Assembly: GCF_015708085.1 (NCBI RefSeq)
Contig: NZ_JADNYM010000032.1
Location: 1-49,548, forward strand
Source: Arthrobacter terrae
GTDB lineage: Bacteria > Actinomycetota > Actinomycetes > Actinomycetales > Micrococcaceae
Direction: 5' to 3'
Length of the DNA: 49,548 nt
Shown: positions 11,477 through 48,216 of the stretch, piece by piece
How the letters are laid out: each line of letters begins with the position of its first letter
Numbering within the stretch: position 1 is the stretch's first letter
Made by a program: the position numbers and the translations under genes
Notes under the pieces: model-generated
The model's input: the letters and a program-made list of their open reading frames with translations, nothing else
Database searches by the model: none
Told to the model about the DNA's origin: nothing

Positions 11477-11490
11477 CATCTCCGACAACG

Positions 11491-19178: not shown

Positions 19179-19185
19179 AGACCGT

Positions 19186-19401
19186 TTACTCCCGGTCGGC
19201 GCCGCCGCGGCTTCGACGACGGCCGGGGATGAGGTAGTCAGCCAGGCTCTGACCGGTGTCGGAGCCGAGCTTGGCCTCGAAGGTGGCGCGGACATCGATT
19301 TCGGAAAGCACGCTGAAGCCCTGACCCGAGAGTGCTTCACGGGTCAGGGTTACTGCTTCTTCATAGGGCCGGGAGACGGTGATGGTGTGTCCGTAGCTCA
19401 T
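19186..19401 (-). pseudogene. truncated DUF302-domain protein
   Basis: The first ~45 residues (MSYGHTITVSRPYEEAVTLTREALSGQGFSV through SEIDVRATFEAKLGSDTG) match the start of DUF302 proteins. The conserved second half (LGACNP-type block and hydrophobic C-terminus) is missing and replaced by a basic tail ending RRRSRGGADRE. The start is well supported by AAGGAG before ATG 19401. It lies 56 bases after the second multicopper oxidase on the same strand and probably belonged to that operon. The break adjoins the convergent GH25 gene, so a deletion at that border is likely. A shortened but expressed protein cannot be excluded. Confidence 0.6.
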
Positions 19402-19457
19402 TGCTGAGCTCCTTCATCGGTTTGCTCATTCACGCAACGGACTGTGGGTCCGCTATG

Positions 19458-20945
19458 CTACCGGGCTTCGATCAAGCCCATCATGCCGCTGTCCTCGTGG
19501 TCCAGGATATGACAGTGATAGACGGTTTTACCAGGGAAGTCATCGAAGGCGATCCGGACCCGGACGCTGCTGCGGGCCGGGACGTTGACGACATCCTGCC
19601 ACTCGGGGCTATCCACCGGCTGGCCGGCCTGTTCGACGACCTGCATCGGCCACACGTGCAGGTGCACGGGGTGGTCCATCGGGCTCGTGTTCCGCAGAGT
19701 CCATTCCTCGATGGCACCGGCGGGGACCGTGGTGTCAACCCTGGTGGGGTCAAACGGCCTGCCGTTGATGATGAAACTCATCTTCCCGGATCCCATCCCA
19801 CCGTCCATGCCGCCGCTGTTCATGCCCATTCCCATGGCGAAGACCAGTTCCCTGTGGGCGGTCACCGTGGTGGCCCGCAGGTCCCTGGGTGCCGGCTGCG
19901 GCGGGACCGGTCCCGGCGTAGCCGCCGGCGCGCCGGTAACGTAAAGGGTGGCCAGGACGGTCCCGTCCGGGACGGTCCGGGATTGTCCGCCACCGTTATT
20001 GCCCCCCAGCATGGCTCCCATGCCGCCCCTGTCCACCGGCAGGGCCTGCAGGATCGCGGTCCCTGCGCCAGTGGTGACGAGCAGGTCGGCCCGGTTGCCC
20101 GGGGCCAGCAGCACCTCTTCAACGTCCTTGGGACTCTGGAAGCGGCCCGAATCCAGGCCCAGCAGTTGCAGGTGCTGGCCGTCAAGGCGTAGTTTCAGGT
20201 AGCGGGAGGCGCAGGCATTGACGATCCTCCACCGTTCACGCTCGCCCGGTCGGGCGGCCAGGGCCGGGTTCAGCTGCCCGTTGACCAGGACCAGTGCACC
20301 TTCCCGGCCCATCACCTTCTCCATCGCGGACACGGTGGCGGTGGAACCGCCCCCGGTGAGGGAGATGTCCGAGATGACCAGGACCCGTTCCCTGGTCACG
20401 GGCACGGGTCGGGGGTCCTGGACTATGATCGCCCCGTACAGGCCGCCGAAGACCTGGTCGGCGACGCTTCCGTGGTGGTGCGGGTGGTACCAGTACACGC
20501 CCGGCGGATGGTTCACCGGCAGCCGGTACTCATAGTTAAAGAACTCTCCCGGGGCGATCGAAACCAGCACGTTGTCGCTGTTACCCTGCGGGGAGACGTG
20601 CAGCCCGTGGACGTGCAGGTTGGTCGGATCACCCAGGCTGTTCTCCAGCGTCACGTTCAGCCGGTCCCCGGGCTGCAGGATAAGGGTGGGGCCCGGCAGG
20701 GACCCGTTATAGGACAGCGCAATGGCGTCTCTACCCGCGATCCGCACCTGGCCCCGGGCCGCTGACAGTTTTATCTGCAGCCGGCCATCGGCACTGCGCA
20801 GGGCGTGCGGTTCACTCAGGTCCAGGCCGCCGGCGGCTTGGAATCCCATGGCCTGGTTCCAGAGCAATCCGGCCGCGCCCGTCGCTGCCGCCGCAGCACC
20901 CACACCTCCCAGCATCAGGGCACTGCGGCGGCTGAGAGGTTGCAT
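19458..20945 (-). CDS. Tat-exported multicopper oxidase (CueO-like)
   Basis: This 495-residue three-cupredoxin oxidase has a twin-arginine signal (SRRSALMLGGVGAAAAATG). Copper motifs are HVHGLH (H111, H113), YHPHHHG (H154, H156), HPVHLHVWP near 425 and YHCHILDHEDSGMM near 476-488, the last with the T1 Cys, His and axial Met. A Met/Gly-rich segment (MGMGMNSGGMDGGMGSGKM) precedes the third domain, as in Cu(I)-oxidising CueO enzymes, where Met-rich regions bind Cu(I). It likely oxidises Cu(I) or phenolics outside the membrane. Its ATG overlaps the SHOCT gene stop (ATGA), and the DUF302 remnant follows: one operon. Confidence 0.9.
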   Translation of the reverse strand: MQPLSRRSALMLGGVGAAAAATGAAGLLWNQAMGFQAAGGLDLSEPHALRSADGRLQIKLSAARGQVRIAGRDAIALSYNGSLPGPTLILQPGDRLNVTLENSLGDPTNLHVHGLHVSPQGNSDNVLVSIAPGEFFNYEYRLPVNHPPGVYWYHPHHHGSVADQVFGGLYGAIIVQDPRPVPVTRERVLVISDISLTGGGSTATVSAMEKVMGREGALVLVNGQLNPALAARPGERERWRIVNACASRYLKLRLDGQHLQLLGLDSGRFQSPKDVEEVLLAPGNRADLLVTTGAGTAILQALPVDRGGMGAMLGGNNGGGQSRTVPDGTVLATLYVTGAPAATPGPVPPQPAPRDLRATTVTAHRELVFAMGMGMNSGGMDGGMGSGKMSFIINGRPFDPTRVDTTVPAGAIEEWTLRNTSPMDHPVHLHVWPMQVVEQAGQPVDSPEWQDVVNVPARSSVRVRIAFDDFPGKTVYHCHILDHEDSGMMGLIEAR

Positions 20946-26868: not shown

Positions 26869-26900
26869 TAATTATTATACCCCTAGGGGTATAATAATTA
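26869..26900. promoter_or_regulatory. extended palindromic CstR operator at the rhodanese promoter
   Basis: The core ATACCCCTAGGGGTAT (26877-26892) is a perfect palindrome and the symmetry extends to 32 bp through AT-rich arms (TAATTATT/AATAATTA). The AT-rich arms probably overlap a promoter -10 region. The palindrome lies between the rhodanese operon and a thioredoxin remnant, so it once served divergent genes. Confidence 0.88.
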
Positions 26901-26904
26901 GTCT

Positions 26905-27114
26905 ACGGCAACCATCGATATTTCCGAAAAGACCTTTAGCGGCATCATCACCGGCGACGACACCGTGCCGGTGGAGTTCTGGGTAGCCTGGTGCACGCCC
27001 CGCCTGCCCACCCTGAGGGACTTGGGGAAAAAGACCCTCGTCGCCTCCCAGCCGGGGGCAATGAACGCGACCGGACCCGAGAAGCTCATCACCGGCATCA
27101 AGGATGCTGGACTT
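26905..27114 (+). pseudogene. thioredoxin remnant (trxA-like), internally deleted, start codon lost
   Basis: Translation gives TATIDISEKTFSGIITGDD then VPVEFWVAWCTP, the start of a thioredoxin, then jumps to RLPTLRDLGKK and VASQPGAMNATGPEKLITGIKD, the end of one. The second active Cys and about 50 central codons are gone, the usual ATG is ACG, and there is no ribosome site because the CstR palindrome ends four bases before. A frame stays open far beyond the expected end without thioredoxin features. An intact copy in this position would have put a thioredoxin in the sulfide regulon. Confidence 0.75.
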
Positions 27115-27724
27115 GGAAGAGATACGGGCGATAATGGCAGCCGAGTAACCCTCATTGGCAGCAAATGCGGGATCCCAGCGGACGACGACCAGGGAATACT
27201 CTTGCGCGGCTGGGTTCCGTGGACGGTTACTGGCGTCAGCTTGGTAGCTGGCGGTGGGCTGAATTGCCGCAGCCGGTTCGTTTCTGGCAGGCCTGCCACA
27301 TCTGCTGGGCTGGGCGTTGCGGGAGCGCCTCCAACTGGAATGGAGGGCCGTATCGCCCCCGTTACACACCCCCGTTGACGGCGATGCGCATACTACCTGC
27401 CGACCCATTTTTCCCGCGAAGGCGCGTCCGTCGAGCAGCCGGTCAGCCTAACGGCAGCGGGCGTCACCGGCGAATGTATGGCCAAGCCGGCCGCTGTTCG
27501 TGCCGGGCGGCAATGACTGGACGCAGGAAGGGGGCGGGCCGGTTGACCCGGTGGCTGGAAGGACACCACATCCCGGCCGCAGCGCAGGGGCACCCGGAAT
27601 TTACCGTTACCTTCGACTCCCCGTCCTAGATGGGCCCGATCGGCTACGGCCGGCTCCGGCCCACCCATGACTTGCTGGAAGAGACCCGACCTCCTTGTCT
27701 TTGCATGCAAGGCGCCCGGCGACA
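27115..27724. other. unassigned, probably decayed DNA
   Basis: About 600 bases between two recognised remnants. Several frames are open on both strands but none gives convincing protein or matches a family. One minus-strand reading contains a protein-like stretch (PAAQEYSLVVVRWDPAFAANEG), without continuation. I treat it as coding debris; no RNA gene or repeat is visible. Confidence 0.5.
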
Positions 27725-28352
27725 TCAAGCGGCAAAGGTGTTGATCCGGGCGTCGGGGCTCTCCCCGGGCAGGCCGACGACGGGTCTGGGGCGCCCGCTC
27801 TGGGCCGCAAACATGGCTTCGACGACGATCTCCGAGGCCCTTAGGCATGGTCAAGGACCATGACGCGCTTGGCCCCCGTGTCGAACCGGGCCCGGGTATC
27901 GAACTGAGCCCTGATGTCGAATTTCTGGCACGCCTCCTGGTCCCGAAGGTCGAACGGAATCAACCCGACGAAGAGAACCGTGGTGTTGAATGCTGCCAGG
28001 CGGTGCATAGGCATACGTGCACGTTCATCGCTCCGGGCTCCGGGTCACCATCGCAATGCCCGGAAGCTCGTCCATTTTCCCGTCGGCCCCGCCATGTAGC
28101 TGACCCCCTCATGACGACACACAATGGTTTCAATCGGGAGGCATGTAAACCTTCCAGGACCTCGAGGTAGCTCTCCCCCGGGACCACATAGAGCCGTCGA
28201 ACACCGTGGGCCAGAAGCGACTCGACAACGACGTGACCTGCCGATACCGCCGGGGGAGCATGGACGTCAGTGGAAGATGTCCCGCAATCAGCCCTTTTCT
28301 GCGTCGTCGCGTCTTTGCCTGTGGTGTGGACGGCGACGTTCAGTAACGGCAT
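27725..28352 (-). pseudogene. ThDP-dependent enzyme remnant (acetolactate synthase-like), frameshifted and truncated
   Basis: From ATG 28352 (AAGGAAAC upstream) the frame reads a normal N-terminus: SAGHVVVESLLAHGVRRLYVVPGESYLEVLEGLHASRL. Family sequence then continues only by switching frame: RHEGVSYM, ADGKM/PGIAMVTR, AMNVHVCLCTAWQHSTP, LFVGLIPFDLRDQEACQKFD, AKRVMVLDHA-stop, and ASEIVVEAMFAAQSGRP. At least four frameshifts and one stop are needed, and everything past ~210 residues of an expected ~550 is missing. RHEG, GPGAMN and HTAWQDSTP-type blocks identify ThDP enzymes of the acetolactate-synthase group. It is the last gene of the minus-strand operon above, so that pathway has probably lost a step. 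Confidence 0.82.
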
Positions 28353-28402
28353 GGTGTTTCCTTGTCTATGAATTAGCGGTGTCGCGATTGCCTCCGGCGT
28401 TC

Positions 28403-29770
28403 TCAGGCGTGGAGTGAGGCGGCGTCTTCGAGGTTTTTGCCCTTGGTTTCCGGTGCCATGAAGTAACTGGCTCCGGCTCCGACCAGGGCAATGCCAGCGG
28501 CGATCCACATGGTCCCGGAGAGTCCCAGATGGGTCAGGGCCAGGGGCGTGGCGAAGGTGCCGATGGCGGCCCCGATGCGACTGGTTCCGGTGCACAGGCC
28601 GACGGCGGTGGCCCGGACCTTGGTCGGGAACAGCTCGTTCGGGTAAATCCATTCCAGGATTGAGGGCCCGCCGTTGAAGATGGCGTAGAAGGCGAAGGCC
28701 AGCGCGATAAGGCCAAGCGGGGCGGTGGGGAAGAGGGCGAGGAACAGCAGGCCGACGCCGGAGAGGATGAAGCCCCAGATCAGGACGGGGCGGCGGCCAA
28801 GCTTATCGACGACGAGCAGGGCAACAATGTTGCCGACGAGGAAGAATAGATTGATCAGCCCGTAGCCGATGTTGGCTGCGTCGCCGGACTCGAGGTGGAA
28901 CAGGGCCAGGATCTGCGGTCCAAAGGCGTAGATCGAGAACAGCGTCACGATGGTGCAGGTCCAGAAGATGGAAATGAAGATGACGCGGTTCAGGTAGCCG
29001 CCGGTCAGCACCATTTTGAAGGCCTTGCCGGTGCTGAGCTTGACGGCGTTGGGATCGTGGGCCGTGATCCCGTCCAGGGTTGCTTCTTCACCGATGGTCT
29101 TTTTCAGGATTACCAGGGCCTCGTCGTGGCGGCCCTTGCCGACCAGCCAGTGCGGGGATTCCGGGATCGTGGCCCGGGCAATAAGGATCAAGACGGCCGG
29201 TACCGCCGAGGACAGGAGCATCCAACGCCAGCCGTCATCGAGCGACAGCAGCCAGTAGCCGACAAAGGCTGCAACGGTGGCCCCGACGAACCACATGGCG
29301 TTCAAGCCGCCCAGCAGCCGGGCCCGCCAATTTGACGGCACGAATTCGGCAACGAGCGCGGTGGCGATCGGATAGTCGGCGCCGACGGCAATACCGATGA
29401 GCAGGCGCAGAGTGAACAGCTGCCACGGCTCATTGGCCCAGAACTGCGCAATCGAGAACACGATGATCGCGACCAGGTCGATCGTGTACATGAGCTTGCG
29501 GCCGATTTTGTCCGTGATGTTGCCGAAGACCAGTCCGCCAATGAACACCCCGACCAGTGCGGAAGCGCCGATGAGCCCGTTCCACCACTCGTTCATCTGC
29601 CATTGGGGGATGATCTGGACCAACGCGATGCCGATGATGGCCAGAATGTAGCCGTCCAGGAACGGACCGCCGGAGCTGAAGAGGGTCAGTCGCTTGTGGA
29701 ACGAGTTCAGCGGTGCTGAATCGATGGTTAGTTGGGAGGTGGGTGCTGGAACGGGTGCGTGGGAGAGCAT
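28403..29770 (-). CDS. MFS transporter (sugar-porter/AAHS-like)
   Basis: This 455-residue carrier has 12 predicted membrane helices. Signatures are DGYILAIIGIAL in helix 1, GNITDKIGRKLMYTIDL in loop 2-3, the PESPHWLVGKGRHDEA central loop typical of sugar-porter and aromatic-acid families, LVVDKLGRRPVLIWG in the second half, and PETKGKNLEDA at the C-terminus. It follows RidA by 67 bases on the same strand and is likely the uptake system of this operon. The substrate is unknown. The family includes carriers for sugars and small organic acids. Confidence 0.85.
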   Translation of the reverse strand: MLSHAPVPAPTSQLTIDSAPLNSFHKRLTLFSSGGPFLDGYILAIIGIALVQIIPQWQMNEWWNGLIGASALVGVFIGGLVFGNITDKIGRKLMYTIDLVAIIVFSIAQFWANEPWQLFTLRLLIGIAVGADYPIATALVAEFVPSNWRARLLGGLNAMWFVGATVAAFVGYWLLSLDDGWRWMLLSSAVPAVLILIARATIPESPHWLVGKGRHDEALVILKKTIGEEATLDGITAHDPNAVKLSTGKAFKMVLTGGYLNRVIFISIFWTCTIVTLFSIYAFGPQILALFHLESGDAANIGYGLINLFFLVGNIVALLVVDKLGRRPVLIWGFILSGVGLLFLALFPTAPLGLIALAFAFYAIFNGGPSILEWIYPNELFPTKVRATAVGLCTGTSRIGAAIGTFATPLALTHLGLSGTMWIAAGIALVGAGASYFMAPETKGKNLEDAASLHA

Positions 29771-29837
29771 GATGGTTCCGATCTGGGCTTAAGGAAAGCG
29801 GCGATGGTTGCCCAACAGATCCGTGACCGGAGGTGGG

Positions 29838-30218
29838 TCAGGCTGTTACGGCTGCGACGGCATCGATTTCGATGCGCTTCTGGCCCCGGAAACGGGCAAC
29901 CTGCACCGTGGTACGGGGAGGCAGTGGATGGCCGCTGAGCCGGGTGAGGTAGGCGGCGTTGAAATCGTCAAACTCGTCCAGGTCCGCGAGGAAGACGGTG
30001 AGTTTGAGGAGGCTGGACAGGTTGGAATGTGCATCCGCCAGGGCGTTTTCCAGGTTGTCGAAGGCCTGGACCACTTGGCCGGCAATGTCGGCCGGGGTCG
30101 TGCCGTCGGCACGGGCCGGTATCTGCCCGCAAAGAAAGATGATGCCGTTGACGGCGGCCGAGGCCGAGTAGGGCCGTGGTTTGCCGTCGGAGAACTGGAT
30201 GCGCTCGATGCTGCTCAC
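29838..30218 (-). CDS. RidA-family enamine/imine deaminase
   Basis: This 126-residue RidA/YjgF protein has the family layout: PYSASAAVNGIIFLCGQIPARADG, DIAGQVVQAFDNLENALADAHSNLSSLLKLTVFLADLDEFDDFNAAYL and the C-terminal PPRTTVQVARFRGQKRIEIDAVAAV, where Arg of PPRTTVQV is the conserved ligand. The GTG start at 30218 overlaps the stop of the upstream gene (GTGA) and replaces a longer frame that is the shadow of that gene. RidA proteins hydrolyse reactive enamines; some act in aminomuconate breakdown. In this operon it probably removes or consumes an imine intermediate. Confidence 0.87.
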   Translation of the reverse strand: MSSIERIQFSDGKPRPYSASAAVNGIIFLCGQIPARADGTTPADIAGQVVQAFDNLENALADAHSNLSSLLKLTVFLADLDEFDDFNAAYLTRLSGHPLPPRTTVQVARFRGQKRIEIDAVAAVTA

Positions 30219-30931
30219 CGGTCCGCCATGAGGTAGTTCCGGGAGAGCTGATACATGCGAAGCCATTCGTATTCACTTACTTTCAGAGGATTTTGACAGA
30301 TGTTGGCGTCCTGGCGGTCCAGGCCGGTGGTGCCGGGAAGGACAACGACGACGGTGTTCTCCCCCTCTGACCGCGGCAGCAGCGATGCTGCCATGGCTGC
30401 GCTGGGCGGCTCACTTGCCGAGGTGACGGAGCCATGGTGGACGGAGAGGTATTCCGTGCCGGCCTTGGTGGAGATGGCCACAATAATGGTGCGCTGCAGG
30501 TTGGCGCTGCGCCGCAGCAGCAGGTCATTCCACAGTGGGCGCGGGATCCCGGACACCGTTGTGCGGCTGACCCGGACTTCTTCGGCGCCGCCGCTGGCGG
30601 CCAGGTCGATCAGCTGCATCGCCGAACGCAAGGCCGGCTGGTCCGGGCAGTCGAGTTCGTGCACGGTGACGCCGGCCCAGGCAGTCGACCTGGTGGCTGC
30701 GGCACGCACGGGCTGGGACCAGTCCGCCGCGAGTAGTTGCTCCAGCAGGGCAAGCCCGTGCTTTGAGTCGACTTCGGCCCGCAATACGGCCAGTCCGCCT
30801 TCCTGCGCCTCGGCAGGGTCCGCACCCGCAGCGCACAGGGCGCGGAACGCCGATTCGACGATCTCGCGGGGCTGGACGGAGCAGACGGCGGTCCCAGATA
30901 CTGTGGTCCCAGATACTGTGGTCTCAGACAT
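30215..30931 (-). CDS. unknown 238-aa protein of the catabolic operon
   Basis: I do not recognise a family. After a low-complexity start (MSETTVSGTTVSGTAVCSVQ, from a short DNA direct repeat) there is a helical segment (REIVESAFRALCAAGADPAEAQEGGLAVLRAEVDSKHGLALLEQLL), a middle portion with many Val/Thr and a conserved-looking SRTTVSGIPRPLWNDLLLRRSANLQRTI, and a C-terminus ending EYEWLRMYQLSRNYLMADR. No membrane helices. ATG 30931 lies inside the end of the dipeptidase gene (8-base overlap) and its stop overlaps the RidA start (GTGA). Such a design implies expression in fixed ratio with its neighbours, possibly as a subunit or chaperone for one of them. Confidence 0.72.
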   Translation of the reverse strand: MSETTVSGTTVSGTAVCSVQPREIVESAFRALCAAGADPAEAQEGGLAVLRAEVDSKHGLALLEQLLAADWSQPVRAAATRSTAWAGVTVHELDCPDQPALRSAMQLIDLAASGGAEEVRVSRTTVSGIPRPLWNDLLLRRSANLQRTIIVAISTKAGTEYLSVHHGSVTSASEPPSAAMAASLLPRSEGENTVVVVLPGTTGLDRQDANICQNPLKVSEYEWLRMYQLSRNYLMADR

Positions 30932-31916
30932 TGGCCTTCTCCTTGGTGGTGTCCATGACCTCGGCGAACAGGCGGCTGAAGTTGCCGCCCAGGACCGCGG
31001 CAATGGTGCCATCGGTGAGTCCGGCGGCCACTAGTCCTTCGGTGAGCCGGGGGAAGTCTTCGGGCCCGGTGAACCAGTTGGGCCAGGCGGGCCACCGGGG
31101 TGAGTTTTCCGGTGCGGTGGGCTGCCAGCGTCCGTTGCGGAGCCACCCGACGAATTCGTGGTCCCAGCCGCGGGTGCAGTCGCTGCCCAGACCGACATGT
31201 GAAGGCCCATACTGGTCCACCATGCGTGCGACCATGCCGGCAAAGCTCTCGATGGTCATGTGCTCGCCACCGCTGACGGTCGGGTAGAGGCAGCAGCCAA
31301 TGACTCCGCCGCGGTCAACGAGCGGCTGGATGACATCGTGGGGCTTGTTTCGGGGCGTGTCAAAGAACCACAAGGGGTTTGAATGGGTGATCGCGACGGG
31401 CACCGTGGAGGCCTCGATGGCCTCGCGGCTGGTGCGGTACCCGACATGGGACAGGTCAATCAGCATCCCGACGCGGTTCATCTCCGACACCACCACACGT
31501 CCGTAGCGTGTGAGGCCGGAGTCCTCGGCCTCAAAGCAGCCGCCTCCGAGCAGGTTCTGGTTGTTGTAGGTCAGCTGGGCTATGCGGACGCCGAGGCGGT
31601 GGAAGAGTTCCACATAGCGGTAGTCGTCCTCGAAGGGGCTGGTGTTCTGGAAGCCAAGGAAAACGGCGATCTTGTTTTGTTCCTTCGCCCTTTCGATGTC
31701 GGCGCCGCTGGTGGCAAGGAAGAAGAGGTCGTCGTTGCGGTTGGCCAGTTCGAGCCATTGGGCGATGGAGCGGATGGTTTCGGCGGCGTTTTCCCAGACG
31801 GCACAGGTGGCGTTGACAGCGCTGACGCCTCCGGTGCGCAATTCCTCCAGCACCGGCCGGCTCCAGTTGCTGATCTGCAGTCCGTCCACGACGGTTGCCT
31901 GCTGGTGCATACTCAT
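30924..31916 (-). CDS. membrane-dipeptidase-like (M19) metallohydrolase
   Basis: This 330-residue TIM-barrel hydrolase has the M19 renal-dipeptidase layout: QLTYNNQNLLGGGCFEAEDSGLTRYGRVVVSEMNRVGMLIDLSHVG (metal/active-site region), VAITHSNP (His ligand), GGVIGCCLYP, and VGLGSDCTRGWDHEF near the C-terminus, ending AVLGGNFSRLF. No signal peptide, so it is cytoplasmic here despite the family name. M19 enzymes cut dipeptides, beta-lactams and other small amides. Its ATG overlaps the upstream stop by one base (TAATG). In this operon it may open an amide of the imported substrate. Confidence 0.84.
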   Translation of the reverse strand: MSMHQQATVVDGLQISNWSRPVLEELRTGGVSAVNATCAVWENAAETIRSIAQWLELANRNDDLFFLATSGADIERAKEQNKIAVFLGFQNTSPFEDDYRYVELFHRLGVRIAQLTYNNQNLLGGGCFEAEDSGLTRYGRVVVSEMNRVGMLIDLSHVGYRTSREAIEASTVPVAITHSNPLWFFDTPRNKPHDVIQPLVDRGGVIGCCLYPTVSGGEHMTIESFAGMVARMVDQYGPSHVGLGSDCTRGWDHEFVGWLRNGRWQPTAPENSPRWPAWPNWFTGPEDFPRLTEGLVAAGLTDGTIAAVLGGNFSRLFAEVMDTTKEKANV

Positions 31917-33637
31917 TATTTCTCTCCTTCAGGTGCCAGCGGAAACAGCCAGTCGTCGTCGTCGGTTCCACTCATGACCTCCGCCACGCGCGGGGCGCCG
32001 CTGAACAAGGTGACGCGAACCCAGTCGGTGGACTGCGGGCTGAAGTTGTTCATTCCGTACGTCGCCAACTGGAAGCGTTGGGTGCTCAGCGGCAGGAATT
32101 GTGCATCCACGAGGTTGTCCTGCACATCGCCGTAGCGGTAATCCTTGGTCTGCTGGATCCGTTCGGCAGCGAATCGGTCGTCCGGATGGGCCAGCAGGAA
32201 TTCGGCCACGCTGGCCCCGTCGGGGAAGGCCGCCAGGTCGGCCGTCAGCGTGTTGATGCGGCGTGCAACGTCCGTGCAGTGCTCCACCGTGCCCGCCGCC
32301 TTCTGCGTCCGTTGCGCCCGCCGCGGTTCTTCGCTGTCCGCGGAGGTGTACCAGTAGTAGAGGGAGTGCTCCGGGGCGGCAAAGTCGTAGCTGCGGGTCC
32401 AGCCGTAGTTCTGCTCCAGCAGTGCCCGCAATTCGCCGCAGCGCATGGCTGGGTCGAAGGCCGGCGGAGCGGCCACAGTGAGAAGTGCGTCGGCTTCCTG
32501 GTCAAAATCGTTCCGGAGTTCAATGACGATGGAGGCAAAGAGACCGCGGGCTTCCGGGCTGAGGTCGGCCGCCAGTTCGTGCAGGCGCGCCAGCACGGGA
32601 GCGGCCTTCCCTCCGGAGGCCATGAAGGTCTGGAGTTCGCGGAGCAGCTGGCGAAGTTGCGGTCTGATCGAATCGGTCGACAGGAACGGCACGGTCTTCA
32701 GTTCGGACTTTTCCGCCAGGTGCCGGTCCGCCCTGTCAAGAAGTTCGACAACCCGGCCCAGATCAGGATTTTCCGGTGCGTAACTGGCGGCGAGTCCCAC
32801 CGCGAGGGGAAGCTCGCGGAGCTTGCACCAGGCGTCGAGGTAGCCGGGGTGGTTGACCAGGAACGGCACCATGCCCAAGCCGGTGGCGTTGCCCAACCCA
32901 AAGTACTTGCCCCACTGCGCATTCAGGGGAACAGCATCGGTTCCCGCGGCCCGCGCCTTAGCCTTGGCAACATGCTCCACCAGGTCCATGCTGAGCTCGC
33001 GCAACAGCCACGCGGCGAGCATTTGAGAACGGTAAGGGACAGACAAGGGGTGGCCGGCCGGCAGGGTGGCCAGCTCCTTGAGACCGAACTTGCCGTTGCC
33101 GTAGAACGCGGTGCTGCGGATCAGATAGGGGCTGGGGCCAATCTTCGCAACGTCGGGCTGGATCCCCGCGGCAAGGCAGTCGCTGACATAGTCGAAGAAA
33201 CGGGCGCTGCGGTTGGCCCTGGTCATGATGATTGTTTCCGGGTCGGTGCGACCTTGTTCCTGGACCGTGACATTGCGGCGCAGCTCCGCCTCACGCTCCG
33301 GGCTCAGAACACCTTCGATGAGTGCCGCCGTGACGTCCCAAGCATTCGCGATGACCCTGTCGGTGCGTTCGCTTTCTTCCAGTGCCTGGCAAAAAGCGAT
33401 GAACTTCAAGCTGTAGCCCTCGGCGTCGATGGTGTAGACCGCGGTACCCCGGCCCAGCTCGTCCAGCTCCAGCCGGGACTTGGTCACGCGCCATTGATGG
33501 GAGGCCGCGCGGCGGAGCATAGTGCGGGCAAAACTGTGGCGTGTGCCCCAGGCGCCGTTCATGTCGGAGCCGCAGAGCACAGCCTCCGGGGCGCGCAGCT
33601 CACACCTGGTTTCTTCGTCGATGAGGTTCATGGTCAT
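31916..33637 (-). CDS. unknown 573-aa protein of the catabolic operon
   Basis: This large soluble protein has no family I can name. It is largely helical with conserved-looking blocks: AVLCGSDMNGAWGTRHSFARTMLRRA, GEGYSLKFIAF-type AEGYSLKFIAFCQALEESERTDRVIANAWDV, DPETIIMTRANRSARFFDYVSDCLA, STAFYGNGKFGL and QWGKYFGLGNATGLGM. There are no P-loop, Rossmann or metal motifs that I recognise. ATG 33637 overlaps the ALDH stop (ATGA) with AAGAAGG upstream. Its place as the second gene of the operon, between ALDH and the hydrolase, suggests a main enzyme or subunit of the pathway. Base use looks like its neighbours, so it is not a foreign insert. Confidence 0.8.
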   Translation of the reverse strand: MTMNLIDEETRCELRAPEAVLCGSDMNGAWGTRHSFARTMLRRAASHQWRVTKSRLELDELGRGTAVYTIDAEGYSLKFIAFCQALEESERTDRVIANAWDVTAALIEGVLSPEREAELRRNVTVQEQGRTDPETIIMTRANRSARFFDYVSDCLAAGIQPDVAKIGPSPYLIRSTAFYGNGKFGLKELATLPAGHPLSVPYRSQMLAAWLLRELSMDLVEHVAKAKARAAGTDAVPLNAQWGKYFGLGNATGLGMVPFLVNHPGYLDAWCKLRELPLAVGLAASYAPENPDLGRVVELLDRADRHLAEKSELKTVPFLSTDSIRPQLRQLLRELQTFMASGGKAAPVLARLHELAADLSPEARGLFASIVIELRNDFDQEADALLTVAAPPAFDPAMRCGELRALLEQNYGWTRSYDFAAPEHSLYYWYTSADSEEPRRAQRTQKAAGTVEHCTDVARRINTLTADLAAFPDGASVAEFLLAHPDDRFAAERIQQTKDYRYGDVQDNLVDAQFLPLSTQRFQLATYGMNNFSPQSTDWVRVTLFSGAPRVAEVMSGTDDDDWLFPLAPEGEK

Positions 33638-35094
33638 GCCTTCTTGGGGGCCAGGCGCAGATAGGCGGTCTTTTCGTGGGTGAAGAAAGTGGCGGCGGCG
33701 GCGCTGTTCTGCTCCCGGGGTCCGGCGAAGGTGGAATCCTTCATACCCCCGAACGGTGCATGGAGCTCGGACCCTGTGGTCGGGGCGTTGACCTTGACCA
33801 AGCCTGCCTGCAGCGCGGAAACGCAGCGGCGAATGGCACGCTCATCACTGCTGAAGACAGCGGCGGTGAGGCCAAAGACGGTGTTGTTGGCCAGTTCAAT
33901 GGCCTCCTCCAGGGTCTCTGCGTGCAGCACTGTGGTGACGGGGCCAAATACTTCCTCCTGGCAGATGGTCATGGAGCGCGGTCCGGTCAGCACCGTGGGG
34001 GCGACGTAGCTGCCTTCCCCCTTCGGCAGGACCGCCTGGGCCAGGATTTCCCCACCTTCCGAAAGCGCTTGTTCGACGGCGGCGTTGATTTCTTCACGGG
34101 CCGACGGCGAAACGACGGGGCCGATCTGGACCGAGGCATCCGTGCCCGGTCCCAGGACCAGCTTCGAGACTTTGTCCTTGACTCGTGCCAGGAAGTCCTC
34201 GTGCCCGCCGCCGACCAGGATCACGCGCCGCGTGGCGGTGCACTTCTGGCCGGTGGAACCCATGGCGGCGGCGACAACACTGGTGGCAGCCAGTTCAGCA
34301 TCCGCGTCCGGAAGGACGAGTGTGGCGTTGTGCCCGCCGAGTTCAAGCTGCAGTTTCGCTCCCCGTCCGCAGACAATCCCACGGATGTGGTGGCCGACCG
34401 GCACGGAGCCGGTAAACGTCACACCACCTACCAAGGGATCGGACACCAGTTCCGAGCCCAGCTGACCTGGGCCCAGAATCAGGTTGACGACACCGGCGGG
34501 GATGCCGGAGGCGGCCAGCGCCTCCATCAGCAGAACAGATACACCAGGCGTATTACTAGCCGACTTCCACACCACCGTGTTCCCGTGCAGGAGCGCCGGA
34601 GCGATCTTCCAAGCCGGAATCTGCAGGGGGAAGTTCCACGGGGTGATCACCCCGACCACGCCCAGCGGCCGCCGCACGGTCAGGATCCGCTCCTCCGGGT
34701 GGCTGGAGGGGAATTCGGTGCCGACGGGATTGCGGGCGGAGGCGGCATGGTAGTCAAAGGTGTCCGCCGATGCGTCGACCTCCATCCGGGACTCCGCGAT
34801 CGTCTTGCCGTGTTCGGCCGTCATGACGGCGGCGATTTCCTCGGCCCGTTCCCGGATGGCTGCTGCGGCGGCGGCCAGGACCCGGCCGCGTGCCAATATG
34901 CCCAGCCCGTCCCAGGACGTGCCTGCAGAAGCGGCGGCCTGGATCGCCTGCGCCAGGTCCGCGGAGCCGGCCTGGTGGTAGCTGGTCACTGCCTCCTCCG
35001 GCACTGCCGGGTTGTGCCGGGACACGAATGCACCGGATCCGTCCACCCAGGTACCGTTGATGAAGCTGCTGGCTGGCTTGGTCATTACAGGCAT
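33634..35094 (-). CDS. NAD(P)-dependent aldehyde dehydrogenase
   Basis: This 486-residue ALDH has all catalytic features: the N-terminal FINGTWVDGSG, GVITPWNFPLQIPAWKIAPALLHGNTVVWK (cofactor/oxyanion Asn), TFTGSVPVGHHI, LELGGHNA with the general-base Glu, STGQKCTATRR with the nucleophilic Cys, and EEVFGPVTTV. ATG 35094 is preceded by AAAGGA and gives the normal N-terminus; the 23 codons upstream read into the divergent promoter. It is the first gene of the minus-strand operon and is divergent from the LysR gene at 35213. It oxidises an unidentified aldehyde intermediate to the acid. Confidence 0.9.
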   Translation of the reverse strand: MPVMTKPASSFINGTWVDGSGAFVSRHNPAVPEEAVTSYHQAGSADLAQAIQAAASAGTSWDGLGILARGRVLAAAAAAIRERAEEIAAVMTAEHGKTIAESRMEVDASADTFDYHAASARNPVGTEFPSSHPEERILTVRRPLGVVGVITPWNFPLQIPAWKIAPALLHGNTVVWKSASNTPGVSVLLMEALAASGIPAGVVNLILGPGQLGSELVSDPLVGGVTFTGSVPVGHHIRGIVCGRGAKLQLELGGHNATLVLPDADAELAATSVVAAAMGSTGQKCTATRRVILVGGGHEDFLARVKDKVSKLVLGPGTDASVQIGPVVSPSAREEINAAVEQALSEGGEILAQAVLPKGEGSYVAPTVLTGPRSMTICQEEVFGPVTTVLHAETLEEAIELANNTVFGLTAAVFSSDERAIRRCVSALQAGLVKVNAPTTGSELHAPFGGMKDSTFAGPREQNSAAAATFFTHEKTAYLRLAPKKA

Positions 35095-35212
35095 TGTCAA
35101 TCCTTTGTTCCGTTCCAATCTGTGACTTCTCTCACGGACAACGCTAGACGCATCGCGTTGCAAAATAAAATATCTATTTGACGCCCATCAATACCTGTCT
35201 AATCTTGATTAC
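35095..35212. promoter_or_regulatory. divergent promoter region between ALDH operon and its LysR gene
   Basis: This 118-base AT-rich gap holds both promoters. An ATCAA-N13-TTGAT inverted repeat (about 35186-35208) sits next to the LysR start, of the T-rich type LysR proteins bind. Control of the operon by the divergent regulator is the usual arrangement and is inferred. Confidence 0.5.
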
Positions 35213-36184
35213 ATGAACCTCAGACGTCTTGAACTCTTTGTCGCAGTCGCCGAAGAGCTCCACTTCAACCGGGCAGCCCAGCGCCTCCACATGGCACAGC
35301 CGCCGTTAAGCCAGCAGATCCGCAAGCTGGAGGAAGAGTGCAAGGTGGCCCTGTTCGTGCGTAATTCCCGCAATGTGGAACTGACAGCGGAGGGTGAGGT
35401 GCTCTTGGAGCACGCGCGCAAAGTCCTGGCTCAATACGCCATCATGACGGCGGCCCTGGCGCACGCCAGGGACGGCGAACTTGGCCGGCTGAGACTTGGC
35501 TTTGTTTCTTCGGCAGCTATCTACATGGTGCCCGGGCTGGTCCGGGACATGCGCTCTTGGTGGCCGGGAATCGATCTGCAGTTGCGCGAGGAGACCACGG
35601 ATATGCAATTGGAGCTCATTGCCGCCGGCAGCCTTGACGCGGGCATTGCGCGGGAGGTGCGGACAGTGGCGGGCATCAGTGCCACCGTGCTCATGCACGA
35701 ACCCCTGGTGGTCGCCGTGGCCGCCGACCATCACTTGGCCACCCGGTCATCTGTGGCCCTAAAGGAGCTGAAAGGTGAGGCCTTCATCGCTTTCCCGCGA
35801 AGCCGCATCTCCTCGCTCTTTGACCACATTTCGGCACTGCTCCATGCCGTGGGTGTGGATTTCGACATTGCCCAGGAAGCCGTCCAGTTTCCCACCATTC
35901 TCGGTTTGGTCTCCGCCCACCTGGGCATCGCGGTGGTGCCGGAGTCGATGCGTGCGTTTGCCATCCCGGGCCTGGTCTATCTGGACATTGAGGACGCCAA
36001 CGCCACCTCGACCGTCAGCCTGATCTACTCCACGGAAGCCTCCAACCCCCTGCTCGTGTCAAAAATCAGGGCAGCGTTCGGGAAATCCTCGCCGACTGAG
36101 CCGGCGCGACCTCACGGGACGAATGAGCCGACGGAGCCAGCCGCCGTGCCAGATCCCGGCGTGTCACCTGGTGCGCCGTCATGA
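35213..36184 (+). CDS. LysR-family regulator of the catabolic operon
   Basis: This 323-residue regulator has the N-terminal helix-turn-helix MNLRRLELFVAVAEELHFNRAAQRLHMAQPPLSQQIRKLEEE, and a periplasmic-binding-protein-like effector domain from about residue 90 (GRLRLGFVSSAAIYMVPGL, DAGIAREV, AFPRSRISSLFDHI, GIAVVPESM). The C-terminus is extended with a Pro/Glu-rich tail (PTEPARPHGTNEPTEPAAVPDPGVSPGAPS) that is not part of the fold. Divergent from the ALDH operon, it is likely its activator and responds to a substrate or intermediate of the pathway. The following 156 bases to the next LysR gene (convergent) carry no gene. Confidence 0.9.
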   Translation: MNLRRLELFVAVAEELHFNRAAQRLHMAQPPLSQQIRKLEEECKVALFVRNSRNVELTAEGEVLLEHARKVLAQYAIMTAALAHARDGELGRLRLGFVSSAAIYMVPGLVRDMRSWWPGIDLQLREETTDMQLELIAAGSLDAGIAREVRTVAGISATVLMHEPLVVAVAADHHLATRSSVALKELKGEAFIAFPRSRISSLFDHISALLHAVGVDFDIAQEAVQFPTILGLVSAHLGIAVVPESMRAFAIPGLVYLDIEDANATSTVSLIYSTEASNPLLVSKIRAAFGKSSPTEPARPHGTNEPTEPAAVPDPGVSPGAPS

Positions 36185-36340: not shown

Positions 36341-37225
36341 TTAGCCTGTGAGGACGCGGCTTGCGATGTCCAGGAATTGCTGCGTCAACTCATCAGCGCC
36401 ACCGTCCGGGAGGACTGCTGAAAGTTGTGAGGTTGCGTTGTCCTCAGCCAGTTCGCGGTAGACGAGTCCCGGAAGTACGGTGGCCCGGACCGAGGCTGGA
36501 ACGATGGCCACTCCCATGCCGCTGGCGACCAGGCCCAGTGTCGTGGGGAAAGCGAGGACCTCCATAGCATCGCTGAGATCAATGCCTGCATGCTGGCAGA
36601 GCGCGGAAATTGTCCGCGACATGGCGGGCGCAACATGCTTGGGCAGGACGATGAACCGCTCCCCCTGCAGGGTACTGAGTTTGACGTGATCGGTCGCGGC
36701 CGTTGGGTGGCGGTCCGGGCATGCAAGAACCAATTTTTCCCGCGCGAGCGGGATAATCGAGGTTCCGCGCGCGTGGACAACATCGCGGACTAACCCCAGA
36801 TCCATTTGACCGCTAAGAACCAGTTCGATCTGCTGCTGCGAAGGCATTTCCTGCAGGCTGAGCCTGACGTCCGGATGTTCGTGACTGAAGGGGGCAACGA
36901 TCCGCGGCAACAGGTCGTATGCTGCCGACGGAACAAAGCCGACGCGTAAGTACCCCTGCCGTCCGGAAACCAAATCGGCAATCCGCTCTTTCACATGCGT
37001 TTCGGACGCGGCGAAAACCTTTGCCTGCTGCGCCACGGCCACACCCAACCTCGTGAGAGCGACCTCCCGGGTTGTGCGATGCAGCAGGCGTGCGCCCACC
37101 TCCCGTTCCAAAAGATTGATCTGCTGGCTCAGCGCGGGTTGTGAGAGGTGCAGGCGCACCGCTGCGCGCCCGAAGTGGAGTTCTTCTGCCACCGCAAGGA
37201 AATACTGCAGACGTCTGGTTTCCAT
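36341..37225 (-). CDS. LysR-family regulator of the VOC/MHS/ADH cassette
   Basis: This 294-residue LysR protein has the DNA-binding start METRRLQYFLAVAEELHFGRAAVRLHLSQPALSQQINLLEREVGARLLHRTTREV, and an effector domain (GYLRVGFVPSAAYDLLPRIVAPF, DLGLVRDVV, VLPKHVAPAMSRTI, GVAIVPASV). It is only moderately like the LysR protein 350 bases away, so this is not a recent duplication. It is divergent from the VOC gene, and a typical LysR site lies just upstream of its own ATG. It probably activates the three-gene cassette and represses itself. Confidence 0.88.
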   Translation of the reverse strand: METRRLQYFLAVAEELHFGRAAVRLHLSQPALSQQINLLEREVGARLLHRTTREVALTRLGVAVAQQAKVFAASETHVKERIADLVSGRQGYLRVGFVPSAAYDLLPRIVAPFSHEHPDVRLSLQEMPSQQQIELVLSGQMDLGLVRDVVHARGTSIIPLAREKLVLACPDRHPTAATDHVKLSTLQGERFIVLPKHVAPAMSRTISALCQHAGIDLSDAMEVLAFPTTLGLVASGMGVAIVPASVRATVLPGLVYRELAEDNATSQLSAVLPDGGADELTQQFLDIASRVLTG

Positions 37226-37234
37226 GCCTCTATT

Positions 37235-37255
37235 TATATAAGGAAATCTTATATA
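37235..37255. promoter_or_regulatory. LysR-type operator TATATAAG-N5-CTTATATA
   Basis: A perfect inverted repeat of 8-bp arms with a 5-base centre contains the classic LysR core ATAAG-N5-CTTAT (T-N11-A). It lies 10 bases before the LysR ATG and about 110 bases before the VOC gene, as expected for an autorepressed divergent activator. Confidence 0.75.
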
Positions 37256-37362
37256 TGCGCAAGTATTTCCGCCTTCTGTTTCTTAGTGTCGAGGGTCACT
37301 ATTAAGAGCGATCCCGGTGGTCAACGAAACCCCCGGACCCTTCGACAAACGAGGAACCTAAG

Positions 37363-37815
37363 ATGAACATCGCCCACATTGGCTTCACGGTCTCAGATCT
37401 TGATGCGGCCATCGACTTCTTCGTGAACCACTTCGGATTTCATCTGCGACACCGGCAGATCCAAGACAACCCGTACACGAGGGCCACCGTGGGGGTGCCC
37501 GATGCCGTCATCGACAACGCAATACTTTCGACCGCCGAACACCTTGGCGCGGAACTGCAGTTGCTTCAGTACATTCAGCCTGAATGCGACGGCTCGTTTC
37601 TGCCCGCTCACCACCCGGGTGCAACCCATCTCGCCCTGGTTGTCGACGACATCCGAGAAATCTACGGTACTTGCATCAATTCGGGCGTCGAGTTCGTGTC
37701 ACCGCCAAATGAGATAGACACCGGGCGAAACACTGGCGGAATTATCGCCTACGCCATTGGGCCCGATGGTCTTCGCGTGGAACTGTTTCAGCCAGCTACC
37801 GTGTTCAGCTTCTAG
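37363..37815 (+). CDS. VOC-superfamily protein (glyoxalase/dioxygenase fold)
   Basis: This 150-residue protein holds two beta-alpha-beta-beta-beta modules of the vicinal oxygen chelate fold. The first begins MNIAHIGFTVSDLDAAIDFFVNHFGF, with His5 as a candidate metal ligand. The second has PGATHLALVVDDIREIYGTCINSGVEF with another His, and the closing GPDGLRVELFQP with the final Glu ligand. The three usual ligands (His, His, Glu) are present, so metal-dependent catalysis (lyase, isomerase, epimerase or dioxygenase) is possible. It is the first gene of the cassette with an MHS transporter and a zinc dehydrogenase. No substrate can be named. Confidence 0.83.
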   Translation: MNIAHIGFTVSDLDAAIDFFVNHFGFHLRHRQIQDNPYTRATVGVPDAVIDNAILSTAEHLGAELQLLQYIQPECDGSFLPAHHPGATHLALVVDDIREIYGTCINSGVEFVSPPNEIDTGRNTGGIIAYAIGPDGLRVELFQPATVFSF

Positions 37816-37841
37816 TAATGCATACCCACAAGGAGTCACCG

Positions 37842-39194
37842 ATGACTAGTACCACCTCGAACACGGTTTTGTCCCCACGCGAACGCAGAAAAGCAATCGT
37901 CGCCGCGGCCGCTGGCAACTTTAGCGAGTGGTACGACTTCAGCGTATATGGCGTCGTCGCAGCCGTCATTGCAGTGAACTTCTTTCCCGCCAAAGACCAG
38001 TTCGTTGCGCTTCTCAGCACTTATATCATTTTTGCTCTTACGTACATCACACGCCCGCTGGGCGGCCTTCTGACCGGATGGATTGCCGACACATACGGTC
38101 GGCGACCCGCGCTTGCTCTGACCATTGCCGTGATGACAGTGGCTACGGCAGCCGTGGGAGTGCTCCCGTCTTACGCCGCGATCGGAGTGGCGGCACCGAT
38201 CCTGCTGCTCTCATGCCGCTTGCTGCAGGGGCTCGGAGCGGGCGGCGAGTACGGCTCGGCCATAAGTTTTCTCTATGAGCACAGCGCCCCAGAGCGGCGA
38301 GCCCGTACCATCAGCTACTTGGTCTCGAGCACATTCCTCGGAGTGCTCGCTGGCGTAGGATTCGCCAGCCTCCTCAGCGCAATCATAGGCAATACGGCAT
38401 TCGCGGAATGGGGATGGCGAGTGCTGTTCATTATCGCGCTCCCCATCGGATTGATCGGGATGTACATCCGGAAACATGTTCAAGAGACGCCAGAGTTCAT
38501 CGCGCTTCGCAAGGCCGACGAACTTGCCAAGGTCAAGCCCAGCCCCGTACGGGACTCGTTCAGATCGCACAAGGCAACGATGGTCGTCTTCATTCTGGCG
38601 ATCGGAATCTATCCGTTGATCACCACGACCATCACGTCATACTTCACTACCTTCCTAGTCCGTACTGTGAAGATTGCGCCGAGCGAGGCCTACACCATCA
38701 CCCTGATCACAGACGTCGCCCTCATTCTCGCGGCGCTAGGCACCGGGATGATCGTCGACAAGATCGGTATGTATCGCACACTTCTTAGCGGCGCCCTTCT
38801 AGTCGCGGTCCTTGGTGTACCAATTTTCTTGATCGCCTCTGGTGGCCACTCCGCATCGATACTCGCGGGTGTCATTCTCGGAGTTTGCGGAGGCATACTC
38901 GCTGTACCGGCTGCCCTGGCCGTTTCGCAGATGTTTCCACCCACCGTTCGTGTCACAGCCGGATCGTTCTCTTACAACATCACAGTGATCCTGTTTGGCG
39001 CGACCGGCCCTCTGCTCGGCGTCGCGCTAACGGGACAGAGCGGAAACGTATACGCGTACGGGATCTATCTCTCCACGATTGCGCTTGTCTCCGCGGGGGC
39101 AATTTTCCTGGGGCGCAGCCGGATCCGTCGAGTCGACGGCATCGACGCCCATTCTTCGATTCCCCCAGAATCACTCGTTAACGTCAAGCGCTGA
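37842..39194 (+). CDS. MHS-family (metabolite:H+ symporter) MFS transporter
   Basis: This 450-residue 12-helix carrier has the MHS hallmarks NFSEWYDFSVYGVVAAVIA in helix 1, GWIADTYGRRPALALTI after helix 2, and LLQGLGAGGEYGSAISFLYEHSAPERRA, ending the first half with WGWRVLFIIALPIGLIGMYIRKHVQETPEF. These carriers take up shikimate, proline/betaine, dicarboxylates or aromatic acids with protons. ATG 37842 is preferred over 37818 because AAGGAG lies eight bases before it. It follows the VOC gene by 26 bases and is the import step of the cassette. Base composition is lower in GC than the flanks. Confidence 0.87.
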   Translation: MTSTTSNTVLSPRERRKAIVAAAAGNFSEWYDFSVYGVVAAVIAVNFFPAKDQFVALLSTYIIFALTYITRPLGGLLTGWIADTYGRRPALALTIAVMTVATAAVGVLPSYAAIGVAAPILLLSCRLLQGLGAGGEYGSAISFLYEHSAPERRARTISYLVSSTFLGVLAGVGFASLLSAIIGNTAFAEWGWRVLFIIALPIGLIGMYIRKHVQETPEFIALRKADELAKVKPSPVRDSFRSHKATMVVFILAIGIYPLITTTITSYFTTFLVRTVKIAPSEAYTITLITDVALILAALGTGMIVDKIGMYRTLLSGALLVAVLGVPIFLIASGGHSASILAGVILGVCGGILAVPAALAVSQMFPPTVRVTAGSFSYNITVILFGATGPLLGVALTGQSGNVYAYGIYLSTIALVSAGAIFLGRSRIRRVDGIDAHSSIPPESLVNVKR

Positions 39195-39238
39195 CGAAGA
39201 CTTACTAATCCAAATTTTCTATCGAAAGGCCAGCAGAG

Positions 39239-40321
39239 ATGCGAGCTGCAGTTCTTCGCGAAGTTCCAGGAAAATTCTCCATCGAGAACGTTGATCTAGA
39301 CAAGCCACGCGGGGAGGAGGTTCGCATCCGCACCATGGCGGCTGGAGTCTGCCAAACCGAGCTCCACATCATGGAGGGCCGTAACCCGGCCCTTCTACCA
39401 ACGGTTCTAGGCCATGAATCGGCTGGCGTCGTGACCGCGATCGGCGAAGACGTCACCCACGTTAAGCTTGGTGACCATATCGTCACATGTGTCTCGAGAT
39501 TCTGTGGAGAATGCAGGCAGTGCCTGACGGGACACCCGTCTCTCTGCCACGCCGTGTCAACGGGCAGGGCCGCCGGTGCGCCCCCTGCGCTCTCACAGAA
39601 CGGTAATTCGATCAATCAGTTCGTCGGCCTGGCATCGTTCGCAGAGGAGATGCTCGTTCATGAAAGAAATACGGTCAAAATTGACCGCGACATCCCATTT
39701 GACCGTGCAGCGTTGGTCGGCTGTGCCGTCTTGACCGGCTGCGGAGCCGTGTTCAACTCGGCTCAGGTCCGCGCAGGAACAACCGTTGCGGTCATCGGTT
39801 GTGGTGGTGTTGGGCTCAACTGCATTCAGGGGGCACGGATCGCCGGGGCGCTGAGAGTGATCGCGATCGACAAATCCGCCGCGAAATTGGCCCTCGCGAA
39901 ACAGTTCGGCGCTACGGACGTTATCGACGCCAGTTCCTGCGATCCGGTCGCGGCCGTAAGAGACCTCACACTTGGCGGCGTCGAGTATAGCTTTGAAGCG
40001 ATCGGACTTCCCTCGACGATCGAGCAGGCAATCGCGATGCTCAGCCGAGGCGGGGTGACGACCGCAATCGGAATGATCCCAGACGGAGCGACGGTTAGGG
40101 TGAGCGGCGCCGACATGATGGCAGAACGCCGACTGCAGGGTTGTCGTATGGGTTCGAACCGGTTCCGGTTAGACGTCCCGAGACTGCTCGAACTGTACAA
40201 ACAGGGACGGCTTATGCTCGACGAGCTTATTTCGGACCGAGTAGACCTCGACTCAGTAAACCAAGCTTGCGCGAAGCTAAAGTCAGGTGCGGCCGCACGT
40301 AGCGTCATCATGTTCGAATAA
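39239..40321 (+). CDS. zinc-dependent alcohol dehydrogenase (MDR, class III-like)
   Basis: This 360-residue zinc alcohol dehydrogenase has the catalytic zinc Cys in GVCQTELH, the zinc/proton-relay GHESAGVVTAIG, four structural-zinc Cys in CGECRQCLTGHPSLC, and the NAD-binding VIGCGGVGLNCIQGARIAGA with Asp at the end of beta-2 (IAIDKS), so NAD is preferred. Residues GCAVLTGCGAVFNSAQV resemble the class III/NDMA-dependent group. It is the last gene of the LysR-controlled cassette, 44 bases after the transporter, and oxidises an alcohol or reduces an aldehyde of the unknown substrate. Confidence 0.88.
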   Translation: MRAAVLREVPGKFSIENVDLDKPRGEEVRIRTMAAGVCQTELHIMEGRNPALLPTVLGHESAGVVTAIGEDVTHVKLGDHIVTCVSRFCGECRQCLTGHPSLCHAVSTGRAAGAPPALSQNGNSINQFVGLASFAEEMLVHERNTVKIDRDIPFDRAALVGCAVLTGCGAVFNSAQVRAGTTVAVIGCGGVGLNCIQGARIAGALRVIAIDKSAAKLALAKQFGATDVIDASSCDPVAAVRDLTLGGVEYSFEAIGLPSTIEQAIAMLSRGGVTTAIGMIPDGATVRVSGADMMAERRLQGCRMGSNRFRLDVPRLLELYKQGRLMLDELISDRVDLDSVNQACAKLKSGAAARSVIMFE

Positions 40322-48157: not shown

Positions 48158-48177
48158 GGGTCAACTGTCGCACAACC

Positions 48178-48216
48178 GTCTCACAACATCGCTGCGTGTC
48201 GGACATGTTGTGAGAC
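48178..48216. promoter_or_regulatory. res-like resolvase binding site
   Basis: GTCTCACAACAT and ATGTTGTGAGAC (12-bp arms, 15-base spacer) lie 21 bases upstream of tnpR, between it and the transposase, where Tn3 res sites are found. A third ACCGTCTCA copy near 48258 suggests further subsites. Confidence 0.72.

Follow-up and report, generated by a model that had tools for sequence, protein, structure and literature searches.

An operon of Arthrobacter terrae with a candidate role in the catabolism of an N-methylated pyridinium betaine

Described systems and the locus of Arthrobacter terrae

Two described systems are the closest to an operon of Arthrobacter terrae that lies on contig NZ_JADNYM010000032.1 (positions 1 to 49,548, the whole 49,548-nucleotide stretch being termed the window) and that encodes, among others, two proteins of 573 and 238 residues, referred to here as U573 and U238. 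The first is the catabolism of homarine (N-methylpicolinate), which has been published (Ferrer-Gonzalez et al. 2026, Nat Microbiol 11:1531, as referenced in PMC13390433); according to excerpts of PMC13390433, Mgd takes part in it, and the AraC-type gene tmaR is often adjacent to the mgd operon. Ruegeria pomeroyi draws down homarine fast, the genes not being given in the excerpts of PMC12817926. The second is the kpi pathway of 4-hydroxypyridine catabolism, for which parts of PMC7356986 describe KpiC, an amidohydrolase-family protein of Arthrobacter sp. IN13 that opens a dihydroxypyridine using O2, and cite an enzyme requiring one Fe2+ per subunit.

We read the window locus as an operon under LysR control for the catabolism of an N-methylated pyridinium carboxylate betaine, with homarine as the best candidate, a reading that we favour at slightly less than even probability. 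What it encodes is probably a soil variant of the known homarine-type catabolism, the odds on the substrate being about even. The homarine operon is reportedly named homABCDER and leads to N-methylglutamate. In the proteobacterial loci L026, L028, L032, L039 and L040, Mgd-type genes are joined to a LysR gene and five structural genes, a set that fits the five letters and the R of that name. Relative to these related loci, the window operon has RidA for Ldh_2 and an MFS carrier for a BCCT or ABC transporter, and has no Mgd-type genes nearby. The kpi pathway, as far as the available parts of PMC7356986 describe it, resembles our proposal in the opening of a pyridine ring to a proposed N-formyl intermediate by a hydrolase-family ring opener, but KpiC belongs to Pfam01979, which is matched by no operon protein, and the operon encodes no flavin monooxygenase detectable by Pfam. 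An earlier note on this DNA, made from its letters alone, had called the pathway a candidate undescribed one; this is doubtful, since the gene content fits homarine catabolism, which is already published.

The seven genes lie where the note had placed them, and its family assignments for ALDH, M19, RidA, MFS and LysR hold in Pfam and NCBIfam. The gene of a LysR-type regulator (35213..36184, plus strand; Pfam HTH_1 and LysR_substrate) diverges from minus-strand genes for an aldehyde dehydrogenase (ALDH; 33634..35094), U573 (31916..33637), an M19-like protein (30924..31916), U238 (30215..30931), a RidA imine/enamine hydrolase (29838..30218) and an MFS transporter (28403..29770). The overlapping arrangement is real: the minus-strand junctions are ATGA for ALDH/U573, TAATG for U573/M19 and GTGA for U238/RidA, and M19 and U238 overlap by 8 bases (ATGTCTGA, minus strand). 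RidA starts at the GTG at 30218, where the relative L012 carries ATG, and not at the upstream ATG at 30266. Gaps of 67 bp and 118 bp separate RidA from MFS and ALDH from LysR, respectively. The dN/dS ratios (NG86) of U573 (0.19 against L012, 0.10 against L010) and of U238 (0.30 and 0.21, respectively) are low, and thus the operon frames are under purifying selection.

The window genome (4.43 Mb) has Arthrobacter and Paenarthrobacter as the nearest relatives found. A scan of a genome collection returned 10 loci, from Arthrobacter, Paenarthrobacter, Pseudarthrobacter, Specibacter, Cryobacterium and one Micrococcaceae metagenome-assembled genome. All nine loci of sufficient length share the order LysR, ALDH, U573, M19, U238, RidA, MFS, LysR being the divergent partner of ALDH in 9/9, and the MFS protein (Pfam Sugar_tr/MFS_1) has 89-99% identity in 9 relatives. 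Two of the nine, L017 and L018, have broken frames, and the tenth locus is cut inside U573. ALDH and U573 are split over two frames in Paenarthrobacter Z7-10 and Pseudarthrobacter Fe7 (L017 4888-8069, L018 6545-9711, L008/L009), which reflects either decay or sequencing error. The distribution is patchy: with the window genome counted, the operon occurs in 4/59 close relatives, all of one genus, and the operon or U573 in 8/396 genomes sampled from the order, 6/394 from the class and 5/396 from the phylum. Beyond the actinobacteria, the gene set is partly common to A. terrae and to marine and plant-associated proteobacteria; in two phyla, U573 is repeatedly accompanied by a U238- or DUF3726-type protein and by M19, so that the association, which the note had proposed to check by gene neighbourhood, is not random.

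Clues to the substrate and the proposed pathway

A tree of 36 U573 proteins (leaving out L017, L018, L019, L071-L073 and L077) separates a LysR/ALDH clade, which holds the window protein, from a clade with IclR regulators (support 99/98), and 11 alignment columns tell the two apart. Among the 26 first-clade loci, scanned at E values up to 1e-8 with hidden Markov models built partly from the scanned loci, RidA is found in 15, Ldh_2 in 8, both in none and neither in 3. The count omits L067 (a stretch with Ldh_2 and without ALDH or LysR), L019 (truncated within U573), together with L006-L009, L020-L025 and L078, which are short, belong to the other clade or repeat loci already in the count. The scanned stretches are 11.3 to 21.7 kb long, that of the window being 21 kb, and a gene called absent is one not found in its stretch. 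The mutual exclusion of RidA and Ldh_2 has a Fisher p of 1e-4 over all loci and of 0.002 with close relatives collapsed. Because relatedness inflates these numbers, the stronger argument is that Sulfitobacter, with RidA, is nested within the Ldh_2 clade of the U573 tree, which indicates that the swap happened inside one lineage. RidA hydrolyses imines. According to the available part of PMC6237917, the imine reductase DpkA acts in the reductive methylamination of pyruvate and yields an N-methyl amino acid. A single shared imine with two exits would explain the exchange, and an imine usable by both RidA and Ldh_2 would carry its nitrogen beside the carboxylated carbon.

Further clues come from the transporters and neighbouring genes. 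The 26 first-clade loci include an MFS carrier in 11, a BCCT carrier in 10, a betaine ABC transporter in 4 and another ABC transporter in 1; thus 14 of the 15 loci without an MFS gene have BCCT or betaine ABC, which points to a quaternary nitrogen in the substrate. L074, an actinobacterial locus, combines BCCT with the same core, including RidA. A sarcosine-oxidase-type alpha subunit scoring >1000 bits was found in 5/8 Ldh_2 loci and in 0/15 RidA loci, the window among them; the weaker matches in L034, L033 and L032 (78 to 130 bits) are other FAD enzymes by annotation. In L026, L028, L032, L039 and L040 a GlxA-family or helix-turn-helix gene separates the two gene sets, and this regulator is of the AraC type in both loci scanned (L026, L032). 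Genes for purU and folD accompany the Roseateles locus, and purU the Shinella locus. Together, the Mgd-type genes, folD and purU argue for an N-methyl group. The window ALDH (Pfam Aldedh, 465.5 bits) scores best, among the 43 NCBIfam families that it matches, with the 2-oxoglutarate-semialdehyde dehydrogenase model NF042993, at 436 bits against an equivalog cut-off of 770, which fits a five-carbon aldehyde. RidA (PF01042, 86.5 bits; cut-off 27.3) keeps the Arg of the P-x-R stretch and scores under the TIGR00004 cut-off (79.7 against 106.25).

In the proposed pathway, the MFS protein would import a betaine whose nitrogen adjoins the carboxylate-bearing carbon. U573, the Ldh_2-like U238 and the modified M19 protein would then attack and open the ring, so that a five-carbon aldehyde results and the nitrogen carries a one-carbon group. 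The aldehyde would be oxidised by ALDH and the one-carbon group removed as formate, and RidA would hydrolyse the resulting N-methyl-2-iminoglutarate to 2-oxoglutarate and methylamine. In related proteobacterial loci, an Ldh_2 reductase takes the place of RidA and would yield N-methylglutamate, to be demethylated by the adjacent tetrameric-type dehydrogenase. As bookkeeping, homarine, O2 and two hydrogens would give an N-formyl-N-methyl aldehyde acid, and its oxidation and deformylation would be followed either by reduction to N-methylglutamate or by hydrolysis to 2-oxoglutarate and methylamine. The note had likewise supposed that a nitrogen compound is imported and degraded via an aldehyde and an imine, with the two unknown proteins as the key step, and this outline is supported. 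If the proposal is true, homarine-type betaine breakdown extends from proteobacteria to soil-type actinobacteria, the same pathway has a second, hydrolytic exit, and a probable role can be given to DUF3726 and to U573, which lies outside the family libraries searched.

Several observations weigh against the homarine-type reading. Mgd-type genes are missing from the neighbourhood of the window operon, and the NCBIfam models matched by the tetrameric-type genes elsewhere cannot separate Mgd from sarcosine oxidase. No Ldh_2 was found in the window genome, nor was a copper amine oxidase or a type-III glutamine synthetase over cut-off (best 326 against 469.6 bits); with neither of the latter two, no methylamine outlet was found there. 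The genome does encode one sarcosine-oxidase-type alpha subunit, elsewhere than in the operon. RidA proteins often have general protective roles, and L064-L066 have neither RidA nor Ldh_2. The likeness to hom was drawn from gene content. Finally, neither a residue pattern nor a model of U573 indicates an oxygenase, and in L067 a separate luciferase-like monooxygenase adjoins U573, so that U573 may not be one.

The strongest alternative, somewhat less probable than the betaine reading, is that the same enzyme system acts on another substrate, a different betaine or N-heterocycle whose nitrogen neighbours a carboxylate (N-methylproline, pipecolate betaine, picolinate or a plant betaine), and that the window operon is no homarine operon. 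Homarine is chiefly a marine compound, while Arthrobacter and its kin are mostly soil bacteria, and the failure to find a methylamine outlet also speaks for this alternative. Moreover, the second U573 clade, set apart by its 11 columns, places the family in more than one setting. In its five annotated loci with M19 (L035, L036, L038, L042 and L043) a Pot-type ABC transporter comes next, some of them have RidA, an acetolactate-synthase-like thiamine diphosphate (ThDP) enzyme, GabT or SSADH, and a scan of 15 second-clade stretches turned up no BCCT or betaine ABC gene. Against another substrate, the window proteins group in the clade with betaine transporters and Mgd-type neighbours. The second-clade locus L036 (S. 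meliloti pSymB) contains at 8223-19671 an IclR-U573-U238-like-M19-ABC-aminotransferase-SSADH-RidA cluster.

U573, U238 and the M19 protein

The earlier note could name no match for either of the two unknown proteins. This stands for U573, which matched nothing in Pfam, NCBIfam or the PDB sequence families; a profile of 19 U573 rows gave a single match to PDB sequences, at an E value of 0.97, which we count as nothing. The AlphaFold model made from 8 close rows has a mean pLDDT of 43.8, too low to interpret. In the alignment, 56 columns, many of them Arg and Gly, are conserved in at least 33/36 sequences; no His or Cys reaches this level, His263 being present in 32. The lack of conserved His and Cys makes a usual His-type iron-dependent dioxygenase unlikely. 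Alignment A1 omits L017, L018 and L019 (two broken frames, one cut off), and A2 omits L018 and L019.

Relatives of U573 were found in 168 plasmid records. The match spans at least 80% of U573 in 166 of these and stays below 60% identity in all; the organisms listed are proteobacteria, and 64 of the records are Sinorhizobium plasmids. Eighteen of the 168 were fetched, of which 16 are annotated and L027 and L030 are not. The gene after U573 in the 16 annotated stretches is annotated as DUF3726 in 10 (one fused) and as a hypothetical protein in 6, and 15 of them have an M19-type dipeptidase gene near U573. Mesorhizobium sp. 131-2-1 carries U573 and DUF3726 as a single 814-residue protein. In one actinobacterial genus, U573 lies within open frames of 863-878 residues in five genomes, with a U238-like part detected by tblastn downstream of U573 in four and an 863-residue frame in the fifth, L070. 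Fusion in two lineages points to U573 and its U238- or DUF3726-type partner being a working pair. What ties U238 to DUF3726 is its position rather more than its sequence: U238 has no Pfam hit to DUF3726 (PF12525), the hhalign comparison is weak (E value 0.016, probability 2.8%), and the relative in L074 scores 12.1 bits, under the cut-off of 22.1. No paper naming DUF3726 was found in the literature searched. In Mesorhizobium ciceri (L037), an amino-acid-synthesis-family gene and alpha/beta hydrolase genes lie near U573, and in L067 (3804-8018) genes for Ldh_2, an alpha/beta hydrolase, AA_synth (PF06684) and the luciferase-like monooxygenase face the U573-M19-U238-like set.

For U238, which occupies the DUF3726 position, the note's claim no longer holds, since the structural model (pLDDT 80.7) matches the Ldh_2 fold. 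The best 26 PDB chains found by Foldseek are named dehydrogenases, reductases or YiaK-type oxidoreductases (best E value 4.2e-5) and belong to the Ldh_2 family, which includes malate/L-lactate, ureidoglycolate and piperideine-2-carboxylate dehydrogenases. Among them is the piperideine-2-carboxylate reductase 1wtj, which we take to be a DpkA, and DpkA to be related to Ldh_2. The match has a TMq of 0.36-0.55 and a root-mean-square deviation of 6.6-19 A, so that the core matches the Ldh_2 fold while the whole chain superposes poorly. Comparison with the neighbouring Ldh_2 enzymes by hhalign gave an E value of 1.3e-4 and a probability of 54%, and the U238 relative in L064 scores 30.8 bits with PF02615 (cut-off 38.8; E value 2.2e-7). 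Unlike the Ldh_2 enzymes, U238 is about 100 residues shorter and has no Pfam or NCBIfam match, the PF02615 gathering score not being reached; its profile had no match among PDB sequences, and nothing was found among viral structures at E <0.001. We conclude from the model that U238 resembles a shortened Ldh_2 fold.

The M19 protein exceeds the PF01244 gathering score of 26 by a wide margin (240.3 bits), and within the family it belongs to the subfamily of its best PDB match, 2i5g (E value 3.3e-69), with which it has in common a GFQN stretch at the same place. M19 dipeptidases have a binuclear metal site that uses an N-terminal HxD and a bridging Glu. In 40/40 copies of the protein, Gln-Asn stands at positions 90-91, where 3id7 has Glu, and both His 13 and Asp 15 are missing, while H157, H178 and D246 remain; an HxD that does not align with the usual one occurs elsewhere within the first 30 residues of four copies. 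With half of the usual metal site missing, the protein is probably no dipeptidase, which speaks against the plain amide hydrolysis that the note had assigned to it. We take 2i5g to be the P. aeruginosa amidohydrolase PA5396, encoded beside dimethylglycine genes, and know of no link between it and U573. In the literature searched for PA5396 with dimethylglycine or dipeptidase, for homarine catabolism and for the gene set, these genes are not described. If the proposal is right, 'membrane dipeptidase' also looks like a misnomer for M19 proteins of the 2i5g type.

Either U573-U238 or M19 may carry out the ring opening. An unlikely variant, compatible with the favoured reading, is that the modified M19 protein is the ring opener, using one metal ion and O2 on a substrate prepared by U573-U238. 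The loss of the Glu and of the aligned HxD in all 40 copies, with two His and one Asp kept, would suit such a site, and KpiC offers a precedent within Arthrobacter, as far as described in the parts of PMC7356986 used. However, the M19 family differs in Pfam from that of KpiC, the role of metal and oxygen is putative, and M19 went undetected beside U573 in L037 and L077. Improbable is a pair that does not act on the ring but serves as chaperone, sensor or store while known families run the pathway: U238 is shortened and shows no conservation where it aligns with the SHG stretch of Ldh_2, and U573 has no fold to show, but the 56 conserved columns of U573, rich in Arg and Gly, look like those of an active site, and M19 would be the sole other core candidate for the first enzyme. 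Returning to the pathway proposed above, with U573 as the putative core subunit, we speculate, with less confidence than in the betaine reading, that U573, U238 and M19 make up a ring-opening enzyme of a new, three-protein kind that acts on pyridinium or related N-heterocycles. Its two clades would act on different substrates, the product of the window clade leaving by a hydrolytic (RidA) or a reductive (Ldh_2) exit, the two being evolutionarily interchangeable.

Flanking sequences

The note had also linked a ThDP enzyme to the operon. Its membership in the pathway is not supported, and the gene has no conserved place in the operon among the nine long relatives. Behind MFS, L010 has an intact 576-residue copy, L017 a copy with an in-frame stop and L011 pieces, and it was not found in the available stretch of the other 6; it was rejected as a core enzyme for this reason. 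The window retains accessory remains (27491..28351, minus strand; blastn to L010), comprising about the first third of the gene (27762-28351) and, in inverted orientation, a further piece (27491-27727), within a decayed stretch behind the operon (26875-28400). A second ALDH follows the ThDP gene in L010 and has no match in that stretch. Also counting against a core role, the second-clade ThDP gene of L043, the only one scanned, fits another NCBIfam model best.

In the 118-bp divergent promoter region, the alignment of 10 intergenic regions shows a conserved TATTGA-N6-TCAAATA (35175..35193), a candidate LysR site. Its imperfect inverted repeat was spotted by eye only, the repeat finder giving no inverted repeat of at least 8 bases, and a promoter and terminator scan found fewer sites than in shuffled sequence. 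Beside the operon, at 36341-40321, lies a further group of genes, for LysR, a glyoxalase-like protein and, assigned by reading only, an MFS carrier and an alcohol-dehydrogenase-like protein; relatives of its LysR, glyoxalase-like and MFS genes adjoin the operon in L010 too. At the right edge of the window (47576-49296), reading alone turned up a resolvase-like gene together with the first part of a Tn3-type transposase-like protein.

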